Origin: Martelella mediterranea
GTDB lineage: Bacteria > Pseudomonadota > Alphaproteobacteria > Rhizobiales > Rhizobiaceae
NCBI RefSeq assembly: GCF_004342225.1
Contig: NZ_SMAR01000021.1
Location: 1-64,000 of the forward strand
Length of the DNA: 64,000 nt
Reading direction: 5' to 3'
Shown here: positions 50,355 to 55,903 of the stretch, piece after piece
Layout: every line of letters begins with the position of its first letter
Position numbering within the stretch: position 1 is the stretch's first letter
The notes under the pieces: generated by a model
Told to the model about the DNA's origin: nothing
What the model saw: only the letters and a program-made list of their open reading frames with translations
Databases searched by the model: none
Translations under genes and position numbers: made by a program

Positions 50355-51500
50355 CTATAATTTGCGGATGCGCCACATCAGAAGCGCACAGGTGCCGAGC
50401 AAGGCACCTGCAAGCACGCAGACAGCGTAAAAGTTTACCCCTTGATAAAGACTGCTCATGATCAGAGGACCGAAGAAAACGGCCACATATGTTGCCGTTG
50501 TATTGAGCCCGATGAGTGTGCCTCTTGCATGCGGGTTACGCTGAGCAAGACGCAAAACCACAAGACTGATGCCGAAGTGGTTTGAGATCCCAAGCAGGAA
50601 CGCGACACCAAGCGAAGCCAGCAATGTGTGCGTTGCGGCGATGAGAGCGAGGTAGAGCACCATCGAGGCGAGCAGGAAAAACGGAAACGCCCGTCCGGGA
50701 CCAAGCCTGTCAACCTGACGGGCGGATGCTCCGCCAAGACCGAAGCCAATGCCATATGCGATCACGACAGTACTGGCGAGCGTCGCGTTAAGGTTCTGTA
50801 CCTCCCGGATATGGTGACCGAGCAAGGCATATGTGCCGTAAAAGGCAATCATGAACAAAAGACCGGTGAGTAGCAGGCTTTTCGCACCTGCGATCCGTAG
50901 TGCCTGCACTCTGGAAAGTGCCGGGGCCTTTTCCGCAGGCCGGTTTGTTTTCAGACCAAGAACGGCGATCGCCAGCGCGGCAGCCAGGCTTCCCAGAACC
51001 GTATAGGCGATCCGCCAGTTCAGGACGTCGCTTAAAAGCGCTGATACCGGAACACCGGCAACAAGAGCGATAGACCACCCCGAAAGCACGATACCCAGCA
51101 CGCGCGCGCCCTGCCCCTCAGGCGCGCTCATAACGGCTTCTGCATAAATGGCCGGCAGCAATATGCCTGTCGAAAAACCCGCCAGAGCCTGAAACAGTGC
51201 GAGCATTTGCCAGTTTATGCTGATTGCGGACCCGGCAAAGGCGATCATGATCAAAGTCACTGAACCCGTCAGTATGATTCGGGTATCGATCCGATCAATC
51301 AATCCGGACAGAAAAAAAGCCGAAAAAGCTGCGGCGGCTCCGAACGCCGAGATCGCGCGCGTAATCGCAACCGGTCTGGTATTCAGAGATTGAGCGACAT
51401 CGCCAAGGATCGGGCCGAGGATGAATGAGTTCGCGCCAATGAGAAAAACACCAAGTATCAGCGCTGACAATTTAAGCGGCTTCAGGTTTTTATTTTGCAA
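50355..51500 (-). CDS. MFS transporter
   Basis: Major facilitator protein of about 381 residues with twelve hydrophobic segments. The loop between helices 2 and 3 reads GLIDRIDTRIILTGSVTLIM, and ARQVDRLGPGRAFPFF lies at the equivalent position in the second half. The start is uncertain: the open frame runs to 51722, but that would overlap the divergent regulator gene. TTG at 51500 places the first helix at the N-terminus. The regulator lies head to head, so amino acid or related efflux is a fair guess; the substrate is unknown. Confidence 0.78.
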   Translation of the reverse strand: MQNKNLKPLKLSALILGVFLIGANSFILGPILGDVAQSLNTRPVAITRAISAFGAAAAFSAFFLSGLIDRIDTRIILTGSVTLIMIAFAGSAISINWQMLALFQALAGFSTGILLPAIYAEAVMSAPEGQGARVLGIVLSGWSIALVAGVPVSALLSDVLNWRIAYTVLGSLAAALAIAVLGLKTNRPAEKAPALSRVQALRIAGAKSLLLTGLLFMIAFYGTYALLGHHIREVQNLNATLASTVVIAYGIGFGLGGASARQVDRLGPGRAFPFFLLASMVLYLALIAATHTLLASLGVAFLLGISNHFGISLVVLRLAQRNPHARGTLIGLNTTATYVAVFFGPLIMSSLYQGVNFYAVCVLAGALLGTCALLMWRIRKL

Positions 51501-51513
51501 GAAATAGCTCGTT

Positions 51514-51555
51514 GAATTGTGTTCTGGATAGCCGCAGTATGTCCGAACATAATTC
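51514..51555. promoter_or_regulatory. Inverted repeat between MFS and Lrp genes, candidate operator
   Basis: GAATTGTGTTC (51514-51524) and GAACATAATTC (51545-51555) are complementary at 10 of 11 positions, with centres 31 bp (three helix turns) apart. The spacing suits an Lrp-type oligomer. The repeat lies in the 128-bp divergent promoter region. Confidence 0.5.
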
Positions 51556-51628
51556 ACGATCAAGCGAACAGGCAGTCGTGCGGCAAAAAACGAATAGCAT
51601 TCAGAGATCAGGAAGAGCCGTTCCCATA

Positions 51629-52087
51629 ATGGACCAGAAAGACCGAAAGATATTAGCGCTTCTGGCGGACAATGCAGACAGGTCCTTCGTTGAACTCGGT
51701 GAAAAGGTCGCGCTTTCACCACCTGCCGTTCACGAGCGGGTCAAGCGGCTGAAACGTGACGGCGTTATAACAAAAACGGTGGCGTGTCTGGACGGAGCAC
51801 TGATTGGCTGCCCGCTTCTTGCTTTTATTCATGTTGATACCGATAGCTGGCGGCAGCAATCCATGCTTGAGGCGTTTCAGCAGGTCGCAGATGTGGAGGA
51901 GATTCACAGCGTTGCGGGTGAAACCGGATATATCCTCAAAGCCCGCACGCGTGACACCTCAGAGCTTGAGGCATTGCTCAAACGACTGCAAGCCATTGAT
52001 GGTGTTTTAAGAACCCGCAGTCATATCGTGCTGAATACAGCGCTTGAACGCGGCCCATCACCCGATCCTGAGCGCGGCTGGAACTGA
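51629..52087 (+). CDS. Lrp/AsnC-family transcriptional regulator
   Basis: The 152-residue product has an N-terminal winged helix-turn-helix (MDQKDRKILALLADNADRSF, ELGEKVALSPPAVHERVKRL) and a C-terminal RAM/AsnC ligand-binding domain (VEEIHSVAGETGYILKARTR). Length is typical. ATG 51629 follows GGAAGAG; the frame extends 39 codons upstream without conservation. It is divergent from the MFS gene and probably controls it and itself through the inverted repeat between them; an amino acid is the likely effector. Confidence 0.88.
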   Translation: MDQKDRKILALLADNADRSFVELGEKVALSPPAVHERVKRLKRDGVITKTVACLDGALIGCPLLAFIHVDTDSWRQQSMLEAFQQVADVEEIHSVAGETGYILKARTRDTSELEALLKRLQAIDGVLRTRSHIVLNTALERGPSPDPERGWN

Positions 52088-52134: not shown

Positions 52135-52163
52135 CTTGACTCACCGCAGGCCGAAAGGCATAA
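52135..52163 (+). promoter_or_regulatory. Promoter ahead of the cysS leader
   Basis: CTTGAC at 52135-52140 is a perfect alphaproteobacterial -35 box. A 17-base spacer leads to GCATAA at 52158-52163 as a weaker -10 box. The predicted start falls at about 52170, at or next to the ATG of the leader peptide (52171), so the leader may be translated from a leaderless mRNA as is known for trpL in Sinorhizobium. Confidence 0.5.
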
Positions 52164-52170
52164 GACCATC

Positions 52171-52212
52171 ATGAAAACGACCATTTGCATTTGCTGCATT
52201 ATTATTCACTAG
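52171..52212 (+). CDS. Cysteine-codon leader peptide of cysS
   Basis: A 13-codon frame encodes MKTTICICCIIIH. Cys codons (TGC) occupy positions 6, 8 and 9, which is extreme for a peptide this short because Cys is the rarest residue in most proteins. It lies 111 bp before cysS, between a promoter and a terminator-like hairpin. The natural reading is transcription attenuation: low Cys-tRNA stalls the ribosome on the Cys codons and allows transcription into the cysteinyl-tRNA synthetase gene. This is inferred from layout; I do not know of a described cysS leader of this kind in the order. Confidence 0.65.
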   Translation: MKTTICICCIIIH

Positions 52213-52290
52213 CGTTCTCGCTGGTCGGTCGTTCCTGTCCTGAAATCAACTCATTCGACAGACGTCCCGGCCGGGGCGCTGGTTCTTTTG
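52208..52290 (+). promoter_or_regulatory. Candidate attenuator of cysS
   Basis: Three foldings can be drawn. The first is a 7-bp hairpin ACTAGCG/CGCTGGT (52208-52225) that overlaps the leader stop codon. The second is a pairing of CGGTCGTTCCTGTC (52226-52239) with GACAGACGTCCCG (52257-52269), about 10 bp with bulges, which would act as antiterminator. The third is a GC-rich hairpin CGTCCC-GGCC-GGGGCG (52263-52278) followed by CTGGTTCTTTT, terminator-like. The second and third share 52263-52268 and exclude each other. Drawn by eye; energies not computed. Confidence 0.5.
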
Positions 52291-52323
52291 ATGTACTGAG
52301 CTGACTGATTTCGGGAGAATAGG

Positions 52324-53745
52324 ATGGGTACACCCCTCAGACTTTATAATACACTGACGCGCGAGAAGCAGGATTTCGAGCCGATCGATCCGAACAATGT
52401 GCGCATGTATGTCTGCGGGCCGACGGTTTATGATTTTGCCCATATCGGTAACGCCCGCCCCGTCATCGTTTTTGATGTGCTTTACCGCCTCCTGCGCCAC
52501 CTCTATGGCGAGCAGCACGTCACCTATGTCCGCAATATCACCGATGTGGACGACAAGATTAATGCCCGCGCGAAACGCGATTATCCGGAGCTGCCGCTGA
52601 ATGCGGCCATCCGCAAGGTGACGGAGAAAACCGCCGACCAGTTCCACAAGGATGTCGAAGCTCTGGGCGTGATAGAACCGTCTGTCGAGCCACGCGCCAC
52701 CGAACATATCGACGGCATGGCAGCGATGATCCAGACACTGATCGACAAGGGCAATGCCTATATCGCCAACGGCGCCGAAGGCCGCGAAGTGCTGTTCAGC
52801 GTTCCTTCAATGCCCGATTACGGGCAATTGTCGCGTCGCAACCTTGAGGACCAGCAGGCCGGAGCCCGTATCGCTGTTGAAAGCCACAAGAAGAGCCCGG
52901 CAGATTTTGTTCTCTGGAAGGAAAGCGCGGCTGATGAACCGGGCTGGGATGCGGTTTTTAACCATGACGGCGAAACCGTCACGATTAATGGCCGTCCCGG
53001 CTGGCATATCGAATGCTCGGTGATGTCGGAAAAACATCTCGGCGAGACCTTCGATATTCATGGCGGCGGGCTGGATCTGATTTTCCCGCATCACGAAAAC
53101 GAAATCGCCCAGTCCTGCTGTGCTCACGGCAACCATACGATGGCGAATGTCTGGATGCATAACGGTTTTGTGCAGGTCGAAGGCCGGAAGATGTCGAAGT
53201 CGGAGGACAATTTCTTCACCATCCACGAGCTTCTGGAGACGACAAATTTCGGCGGTCGCAAATGGCCCGGTGAAGTTCTCCGGCTGGCCATGCTGATGAC
53301 GCATTATCGCGAGCCGATCGATTTTTCGGTGAAGCGGTTGGAAGAGGCTGAGCGTCTGATCTCAAAGTGGCCGGTAGCAGGCGACGAAAAAGCAGAGCCG
53401 GACACAAAAATGCTAGAGGCTCTGTCGGATGACCTCAACACGGTATCGGCTATTCAAAGACTTCATGCGCTGGCACAAAAAGCCAATTCCGATGCTGCGT
53501 TGTTGCCGGTTTTTGCAGCAAGCGCTCAACTGCTTGGGCTGCAACGTCATGAGGCGCGCATAGATGAAAGCACCAGCGCAGCAATCCAGCACAGAGTCGA
53601 TGAAAGACTCGCCTTCATCCGCGACAAGAACTGGGCGGAGGCAGACCGGATCCGCGATGAGCTTGCATCTCAGGGCATTCAGCTAAAAGACTCAAAAAAC
53701 AAGGAAACCGGCGAACGCGAGACAACATGGGAGGTCAAGCGATGA
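52324..53745 (+). CDS. cysS: Cysteinyl-tRNA synthetase
   Basis: Class I synthetase that charges tRNA-Cys. The 473-residue product has the zinc-ligand Cys and HIGH-like motif in [20 protein letters not shown], the second zinc block [20 protein letters not shown] followed by [20 protein letters not shown], and KMSKSEDN. The C-terminus has the [20 protein letters not shown] helix. ATG 52324 follows GGGAG. The gene overlaps a GFA-family gene by four bases. A cysteine-codon leader lies upstream, and the cognate tRNA gene lies at 6.6 kb. Confidence 0.96.
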
Positions 53746-54245
53746 CGACATCGGTCCTCTCCGGCGGGTGCCAGTGCGGCGCGGTGCGCTACCATGTGAA
53801 AGGTGCACTCTCCTACCCTCACATCTGTCACTGCCGCATGTGCCAGAAGGCCTCAGGCAACTACTTCATGCCGCTTGCCGGTGCACATCGTGATGATTTC
53901 AGCCTGACGCGGGGTGCGCCCGGTTGGTTTCATTCCTCTGATCAGGTTCGGCGTGGCTTTTGTGCGGACTGCGGCACGCCGTTGTTTTTCGAAACTATAA
54001 GCGCTGACTCGATTGCGGTTACGCTTGGCAGTCTGGATGATCCCAAAGCCTTGTCGCCAGTCTCACAGGACGGCGTCGAGGCTCGGGTTCCCTTCTTTCA
54101 TGAACTCGCTGGCCTTCGCGCGATACCAACCGACCGCTCAGACCTGCCTGGCGGCACTGCTGCGATTGCCGCCAGCAACCACCAGCACCCCGACCATGAT
54201 ACTGAAAAATGGCCGGAAAACGAAAAAACGACTGCCGGACAATAA
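53742..54245 (+). CDS. GFA-family zinc protein
   Basis: Member of the glutathione-dependent formaldehyde-activating (GFA) fold family, small zinc proteins of mostly unknown substrate. The 167-residue product has the zinc cysteines in [30 protein letters not shown] and [16 protein letters not shown]. It starts inside the cysS stop (ATGA), so translation is coupled. The C-terminal 25 residues are His/Asp-rich and not conserved. True formaldehyde activity is unlikely to be implied by the family name alone. Confidence 0.87.
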
Positions 54246-54283: not shown

Positions 54284-55903
54284 ATGGAAAAGCGCGAACG
54301 CATCTATCTGTTCGACACCACATTGCGCGACGGCCAGCAGACGCCGGGCATCGACTTTTCGGTGGAGGACAAGATTGCCATTGCCGGCATGCTCGACGCG
54401 GTCGGCATCGATTATGTCGAAGGCGGTTATCCCGGCGCAAACCCTACCGACACTGCGTTTTTTGCTGAAAGGCGCACTACGCGGGCAAAGCTGACCGCTT
54501 TCGGCATGACCAAACGCGCCGGTGTTTCCGCTTCCAACGATCCGGGCCTTGCCACACTCCTCGACAGCCAGAGCGATGCCGTCTGTCTGGTCGCCAAGAG
54601 CTGGGACTACCATGTGGATGTTGCGCTTGGCATTTCGAACGATGAGAACCTCGTCTGCATTTGCGAAAGCGTCAAAGCTGTCGCCGCTGCAGCCAAGGAG
54701 GCCATGGTCGATTGCGAACACTTCTTCGACGGCTACAAGGCAAACCGGGACTATGCCCTCGCCTGCGCGAAGACGGCCTATGACGCCGGCGCGCGATGGA
54801 TCGTTCTTTGCGATACGAATGGCGGTACGCAGCCGGACGAGGTCACCGAGATTGTCGCCGACGTCATTGCCGCCGGCATTCCCGGCACGTTTCTCGGTAT
54901 CCATGCCCACAATGACACGGGCCAGGCCGTGGCCAATTCGCTTGCCGCCGTTCGTGCCGGGGTGCGGCAGGTTCAGGGCACGCTGAACGGGATCGGCGAA
55001 CGCTGCGGCAATGCCAACATCATCACGCTTGCTGCAACGTTGGCGCTGAAGCCGCGCTACATGAACCGCTTCGTGCTGGGTATCGACGCGGAAGGGCTGA
55101 CCGAGCTTACCGGCCTTTCACGCGGCTTCGACGAGCTTTTGAACCGCGCGCCGGATCCGCAGCTACCCTATGTCGGCGCATCTGCCTTTGCCACCAAAGC
55201 CGGCATTCACGCCTCTGCACTGCTCAAAGATCCGAAAACATACGAACACGTCGACCCGGAACAGGTTGGCAATATGCGTCGCGTCATGGTTTCCGATCAG
55301 GGCGGAAAATCGAATTTTATCAATGAACTGCAGAAAAGAGGTATTGTCGTTTCTAAAGACGACCCGCGCCTCGACCGGCTGATTGCGATGGTCAAGGAAC
55401 GCGAAGCCGCCGGCTACGCCTATGAAGGCGCCGATGCCAGCTTCGAGCTTCTGGCGCTCAGGGAGCTGGGCTCGGTTCCGCATTTCTTTCACGTCGATAG
55501 TTTCCGCGTCATGGTTGAGCGCCGCTATGACAGCCATGGCCGCATCAAGACCGTCTCGGAAGCGGTGGTGAAGCTCGATATTGACGGCAGGCCGGTCATG
55601 TCCGTTTCGGAAGGCGACGGCCCGGTGAATGCGCTCGACCGCGCATTTCGCAAAGATCTTGGCAAGTTCCAGAGCGAAATCGCCGACCTCAAACTGGCGG
55701 ATTACAAGGTGCGTATCCTCAATGGAGGTACGGATGCGATCACCCGCGTTCTCATCGAAAGCATCGACGACGATGGCGTGCGCTGGTGGACCGTCGGTGT
55801 CTCGGAAAACATCATCGATGCCTCATTCCAGGCGCTGGTCGACTCGATTGTCTTCAAGCTGATGAAAAACCGGAAGATGGCCGGTCGCGCTGCTGCAGAA
55901 TAG
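54284..55903 (+). CDS. cimA: Citramalate synthase
   Basis: Condenses pyruvate with acetyl-CoA to (R)-citramalate, feeding isoleucine synthesis without threonine. The 539-residue product has the HMGL-like barrel with FDTTLRDGQQTPGIDFSVED, the metal-binding IHAHNDTGQAVANSLAAVRA, and GTLNGIGERCGNANIITLAA, plus a C-terminal LeuA-type regulatory domain. The N-terminus and length match the CimA/NifV-like group (TIGR00977) rather than LeuA. ATG 54284 follows a purine-rich site. It lies 38 bp after the GFA gene, so all three from cysS may be cotranscribed. Confidence 0.88.
   Translation: MEKRERIYLFDTTLRDGQQTPGIDFSVEDKIAIAGMLDAVGIDYVEGGYPGANPTDTAFFAERRTTRAKLTAFGMTKRAGVSASNDPGLATLLDSQSDAVCLVAKSWDYHVDVALGISNDENLVCICESVKAVAAAAKEAMVDCEHFFDGYKANRDYALACAKTAYDAGARWIVLCDTNGGTQPDEVTEIVADVIAAGIPGTFLGIHAHNDTGQAVANSLAAVRAGVRQVQGTLNGIGERCGNANIITLAATLALKPRYMNRFVLGIDAEGLTELTGLSRGFDELLNRAPDPQLPYVGASAFATKAGIHASALLKDPKTYEHVDPEQVGNMRRVMVSDQGGKSNFINELQKRGIVVSKDDPRLDRLIAMVKEREAAGYAYEGADASFELLALRELGSVPHFFHVDSFRVMVERRYDSHGRIKTVSEAVVKLDIDGRPVMSVSEGDGPVNALDRAFRKDLGKFQSEIADLKLADYKVRILNGGTDAITRVLIESIDDDGVRWWTVGVSENIIDASFQALVDSIVFKLMKNRKMAGRAAAE

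Follow-up and report, generated by a model that had tools for sequence, protein, structure and literature searches.

A conserved leader with cysteine and isoleucine codons as a candidate two-input attenuator of the cysS-cimA operon in rhizobia and their relatives

The window, meaning the whole stretch of 64,000 nucleotides analysed, contains a short leader open reading frame that lies behind a promoter and directly ahead of cysS. The gene order is leader, cysS, a GFA-like gene, cimA and rarD, and the features from the promoter to cimA are:

52136–52141, forward strand: -35 element TTGACT, assigned from the sequence; in nearly all relatives a TTGAC is found 35–38 nt 5′ of the leader ATG.
52159–52164, forward strand: -10 element CATAAG, with a 17-nt spacer from the -35 element and about 6–7 nt to the ATG.
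52171–52212, forward strand: leader open reading frame MKTTICICCIIIH, with three Cys (TGC) and five Ile (ATT) codons and a TAG stop; orthologous Cys/Ile leaders occur across the family and order.
52306–52318, forward strand: Shine-Dalgarno region of cysS (TGATTTCGGGAGA), assigned from the sequence and from complementarity to an anti-Shine-Dalgarno stretch.
52324–53745, forward strand: cysS, cysteinyl-tRNA synthetase (TIGR00435, 432 bits against a cut-off of 340).
53742–54245, forward strand: gene for a small GFA-like protein, placed between cysS and cimA and overlapping the stop of cysS; a weak match, below cut-off, to the GSH-dependent formaldehyde-activating family.
54284–55903, forward strand: cimA, (R)-citramalate synthase, catalysing the first step in isoleucine synthesis from pyruvate (TIGR00977 equivalog, 603 bits against a cut-off of 450).

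The leader codons at 52171–52212 read ATG AAA ACG ACC ATT TGC ATT TGC TGC ATT ATT ATT CAC TAG, which places Cys at codons 6, 8 and 9. This confirms the original prediction of a 13-codon frame with three TGC codons behind a promoter and ahead of cysS, the latter gene being matched above the TIGR00435 cut-off. The enrichment in both residues, which had been judged hard to explain by chance, also holds relative to the proteins encoded in the window (Cys 0.83%, Ile 6.0%), where the probability of at least three Cys in 12 residues is 1.2e-4 and that of at least five Ile is 4.4e-4. A covariance model search finds one copy of the leader in the genome of the window. In Rfam searches the leader region has no family match at E ≤ 10 apart from two chance matches, and the T-box covariance model does not match it. 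The window promoter is not flagged by a strict promoter scanner; the TTGAC/ATAA/ATG spacing of 19 + 8 nt is kept in named Rhizobium, Sinorhizobium and Agrobacterium genomes. Because the -35 box lies 35–38 nt 5′ of the AUG almost everywhere, and 35–37 nt from it in nearly all leaders of the family, the A of the leader AUG is probably the transcription start, making the transcript leaderless. Window positions 50355–52087, immediately 5′ of the leader, hold a divergent pair of genes for an MFS transporter and an AsnC/Lrp-family regulator; the pair is mostly missing from the same place in the fetched relatives. Downstream, GFA-like genes occur between cysS and cimA in one to three tandem copies across the family, and cysteine/glutathione chemistry is a possible link between them and a Cys/Ile-controlled operon.

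Comparison across genomes, all of them samples, establishes the leader and its two-residue codon content. A DNA search matched 324 of 396 family genomes, with the longer alignments starting at the leader start. When the region upstream of cysS is read in one genome per genus, leaders of 13–21 residues are found in nearly every genus of the family (for example MNTALCIICTIIR, MKTSFAICGICIIG and MKTVICIICRKIIR), and cimA lies downstream of cysS in nearly all relatives. The family set holds 84 distinct leaders, 76 of which are dual, and all 76 dual leaders contain at least one Cys and have Ile as the third residue from the end. Cys accounts for 13.6% and Ile for 31% of leader residues compared with a window-protein background of 0.8% and 6.0%. 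Across the set, Ile codons interchange between ATT and ATC and Cys codons between TGC and TGT, length varies in frame and the stop is nearly constant. The original prediction had been staked on conservation of the ATG, the Cys codons and the stop, and all three are kept among relatives. It correctly placed a conserved Cys-codon leader before cysS and missed the isoleucine half: Ile codons were mentioned in it and not used, although they match the Cys codons in conservation and track cimA.

The leader element is found by pattern scan ahead of cysS in named genomes of Rhizobium, Sinorhizobium, Ensifer, Ciceribacter, Pararhizobium and Agrobacterium; pattern matches in two further loci (L167 and L211) were set aside as chance. 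Across the order the covariance model matched 139 of 397 genomes. Forty matches representing about 30 families were fetched; every one precedes cysS, and the 38 with enough sequence all have cimA downstream. Among the other orders in the class, it matches 5 of 289 genomes, one of which is the window's own, and a few cysS-cimA operons there carry Cys/Ile leaders such as MKTAATIWCICCTIIIS and MNTTICIICCIITC. Apparent Cys-only frames before cysS in other alphaproteobacteria (L328, L330, L338, L354 and L357) proved to be out-of-frame readings of the end of the upstream gene. Three loci (L033, L047 and L053) keep cysS-cimA and have no leader; in these and in L078 cysS is followed by cimA or GFA genes, the leader is lost and the upstream region looks rearranged in some.

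The same comparison ties the codon content of the leader to the two genes. All seven sampled Agrobacterium-type genomes lack cimA and have Cys-only leaders (MKTTICTCC, MKTTICCCC, MKTMICCCC, METMICTCC and MKLTICLCC); the label Agrobacterium derives from identical leaders in named genomes, and the named Agrobacterium genomes are also Cys-only. Genome G018 likewise carries a Cys-only leader, MNTSLANCCRC, and cimA was not found in it even at E 1e-20. In the cysS tree G018 sits among dual-leader genomes in a clade separate from Agrobacterium, with moderate support (SH-aLRT 85). In G092 cimA is lost and the leader is absent, as it is from the remaining cimA-less genomes of the family. In G954, which belongs to a different order, the leader is likewise Cys-only (MFVRAFSPCCCACCCR) and a cimA ortholog is absent. 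Five genomes with dual leaders that seemed to lack cimA (G025, G089, G197, G263 and G308) were discounted, their contigs ending or their assemblies breaking before its expected place.

In G781 and G914 cysS and cimA occupy separate, far-apart loci and each has a leader of its own. The leader of cysS is Cys-only (MTCRCCR...), with the pattern MTCRCCRKNTTES(L/P)A in the form MTCRCCRKNTTESLA or one ending in SPA, and that of the solitary cimA is Ile-rich without Cys (MNIINAIITKGLIISG or MNIINAIIIKGLIISG). These lineages amount to natural control experiments, in which Ile codons vanish where cimA is removed and the leader splits in two where the genes are separated. The candidate control codons match the amino acids of the operon, Cys for cysS and Ile for cimA, in several lineages. 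Since Cys and Ile codon content follows the presence and arrangement of cysS and cimA, we regard this tracking as the strongest argument for a leader that reads the two amino acids. Given that Ile codons go with cimA and the leader splits with the genes, codon content may also be readable as a record of what an operon senses. As a side observation, G781 has only weak threonine deaminase-like matches and cimA-less genomes have strong ones, a pattern that fits cimA as the sole entry into isoleucine synthesis in G781.

Between the leader and cysS the window contains a series of candidate RNA segments:

52176–52182, forward strand: segment A (AACGACC, leader codons 2–4), pairing with D; from covariation over 76 leaders and a swap test.
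52208–52225, forward strand: hairpin B:C (ACTAGCG-TTCT-CGCTGGT), spanning the stop codon of the leader; mostly invariant, with 96% of cells paired in an alignment of 76 sequences.
52226–52239, forward strand: segment D (CGGTCGTTCCTGTC), pairing with A or alternatively with E; from covariation and the swap test.
52238–52248, forward strand: anti-Shine-Dalgarno stretch TCCTGAAATCA, just 3′ of D, complementary over 11 bp to 52306–52316.
52257–52269, forward strand: segment E (GACAGACGTCCCG), a candidate to pair with D in place of A; from a conserved motif and complementarity.
52263–52278, forward strand: GC-rich hairpin CGTCCC-GGCC-GGGGCG with a T-rich tail, a possible weak terminator, not conserved as such.

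Helix A:D is established by comparison of the leaders. Together with B:C it has 90.6% of cells paired over the 76 sequences and seven pairs changed on both sides, values reached by none of 500 shuffles. In swap tests A and D pair more strongly within a leader than after exchange between leaders (p=8e-11) and the anti-Shine-Dalgarno stretch prefers its own Shine-Dalgarno over 83 leaders (p=2e-4), the covariation and swap p-values ignoring shared ancestry. Hairpin B:C is missing from the Cys-only Agrobacterium leaders. The sensing step, consisting of the codon pattern and one RNA helix, is thus well supported at the level of sequence. The original prediction had also proposed that 52226–52239 pairs alternatively with 52257–52269, which corresponds to D:E. 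This pairing is possible and the sequence is conserved, and the swap test detects no covariation in it beyond the conserved motifs. When a ribosome was positioned on each codon in turn, equilibrium folding showed no opening of the cysS Shine-Dalgarno at the control codons, mean accessibility being 0.34 at the control codons, 0.32 at the stop and 0.34 without a ribosome.

Our results suggest a model in which the leader is a ribosome-mediated attenuator with two inputs, charged tRNA-Cys and charged tRNA-Ile, that controls the cysS-(GFA)-cimA operon, and we consider this very likely. As the transcript probably begins at the A of the leader AUG, a ribosome would load directly on its leaderless 5′ end. 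When Cys-tRNA and Ile-tRNA are both plentiful the ribosome would complete the leader and depart, allowing A to pair with D and hairpin B:C to form over the stop codon. The operon would then be kept low, either by pairing of the cysS Shine-Dalgarno with the strand just after D or by the GC-rich hairpin. With either tRNA uncharged, stalling on the Cys or Ile codons would block A:D, leaving D free for E and the operon expressed. Expression would in turn raise Cys-tRNA through CysS and isoleucine through CimA. It is likely, if less firmly so, that such an attenuator is order-wide and possibly class-wide, that it is leaderless, and that it reads two unrelated signals, the charging of tRNA-Cys and of tRNA-Ile, to set one operon in which a tRNA synthetase is coupled to isoleucine synthesis by the citramalate route, with a modular codon content in which control codons are gained, lost or split along with the genes of the operon. 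If true, a two-input attenuator operates over much of one bacterial order, the rhizobia and their relatives, which raises the physiological question of why cysteine charging is coupled to the citramalate route to isoleucine.

The output of the switch may differ from the Shine-Dalgarno sequestration described above. The same sensing step could act on transcription termination, intrinsic or Rho-dependent, an alternative that we rate at somewhat below even chances. The GC-rich hairpin and T-rich tail of the original prediction are present in the window at 52263–52278, where three overlapping terminator-like sites are found against 0.5 expected, and across the family such U-tract sites exceed shuffles (7 of 84 leaders compared with 1.3). 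A U-run also ends the published uORFC-8-2 element (PMC8632094), and with cimA lying far downstream, regulation at the level of transcription is favoured over regulation of cysS translation alone. Against termination, 7 of 84 leaders do not make a general terminator and the U-tract is not kept even by close relatives in the same genus. In several Mesorhizobium-like genera (a label given by impression, as for any genus not backed here by a named genome) the GC-rich hairpin instead includes the cysS Shine-Dalgarno itself and the U-tract is absent.

A simpler reading is that the leader is a Cys-only attenuator of cysS, with Ile codons that are filler or are shaped by RNA structure. The first gene is cysS, every leader ahead of it has at least one Cys, Agrobacterium has exactly such Cys-only leaders and a class of cysS leaders is published for Rhodobacterales (PMC8632094). 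This reading is nonetheless unlikely given the constancy of Ile at the third position from the end (76/76), its 31% share of residues and the variation between ATT and ATC. The Ile run is moreover lost with cimA in separate lineages and stands alone before the solitary cimA of G781 and G914. The published class, uORFC-8-2 (Brewer et al. 2021, PMC8632094), is a cysS uORF reported only from Rhodobacterales, with tandem Cys codons at positions 14–15 and an intrinsic terminator/U-run. It shows that the original prediction was not quite right in regarding a cysS leader as undescribed. uORFC-8-2 was itself proposed to act by ribosome-mediated attenuation, and its description mentions neither isoleucine nor citramalate (PMC8632094). 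Both elements are short Cys-codon uORFs directly ahead of cysS in Alphaproteobacteria; the window leader differs in its occurrence in rhizobia and relatives, in its dual Cys/Ile codons tied to cimA and in a U-tract that is not conserved. By extension, the published Rhodobacterales motif may also contain an isoleucine half that was overlooked.

It is very unlikely that the codon bias reflects the function of a small trans-acting peptide. The leaderless trp leader peptide of S. meliloti does have trans functions (PMC7298713), but a length of 9–21 residues, insertions and an interchangeable order of Cys and Ile speak against conservation at the level of peptide sequence, and composition follows the downstream genes rather than a fixed motif. 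A chance open reading frame, or a conserved RNA that is non-coding, would account for the high nucleotide conservation around the stop codon in hairpin B:C and is highly improbable in view of the in-frame length variation, the ATT/ATC and TGC/TGT interchange, the nearly constant stop and the exact promoter-to-ATG spacing over an order.

Leader attenuators that read several amino acids are well known from thr (Thr and Ile) and ilvGMEDA (Ile, Val and Leu), and leader-peptide control of an aminoacyl-tRNA synthetase operon from E. coli pheST. Control of a synthetase operon is shared with pheST, which differs in responding to a single amino acid through a classical terminator. As in thr, ilvGMEDA and the Caulobacter ilv leader, control codons match the products of the downstream operon; unlike in the thr and ilv leaders, the two inputs here would pertain to a tRNA synthetase and to a biosynthetic enzyme unrelated to it, both encoded in one operon. 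The Caulobacter ilv leader carries control codons for several amino acids (PMC4117421). The rnTrpL/peTrpL system of Sinorhizobium meliloti is a leaderless trp attenuator, with the AUG of its 14-codon leader at the very 5′ end of the transcript (PMC10117765, PMC7298713). It is similarly a rhizobial attenuator, the AUG start of the cysS leader being predicted from promoter spacing only, and differs in its Trp codons and in a terminator that yields an sRNA. Cys-codon leaders also precede cys operons in Mycobacterium (Seliverstov et al. 2005, PMC1262725). These resemble the present element in their Cys runs and lack of an obvious terminator; they belong to another phylum and their genes are cys operons and cbs, with neither a tRNA synthetase nor Ile. 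A literature search, in which subscription papers were thinly covered, returned no description of a Cys/Ile leader, a cysS-cimA attenuator, a rhizobial cysS leader, a leader before cimA or the leader peptide sequences.

Near the end of one Agrobacterium-type locus (L073:2904-3058) lies a strong palindromic stretch, probably a repeat element, which draws chance matches to miRNA families; the Rfam matches in L073 were rejected as miRNA artefacts.
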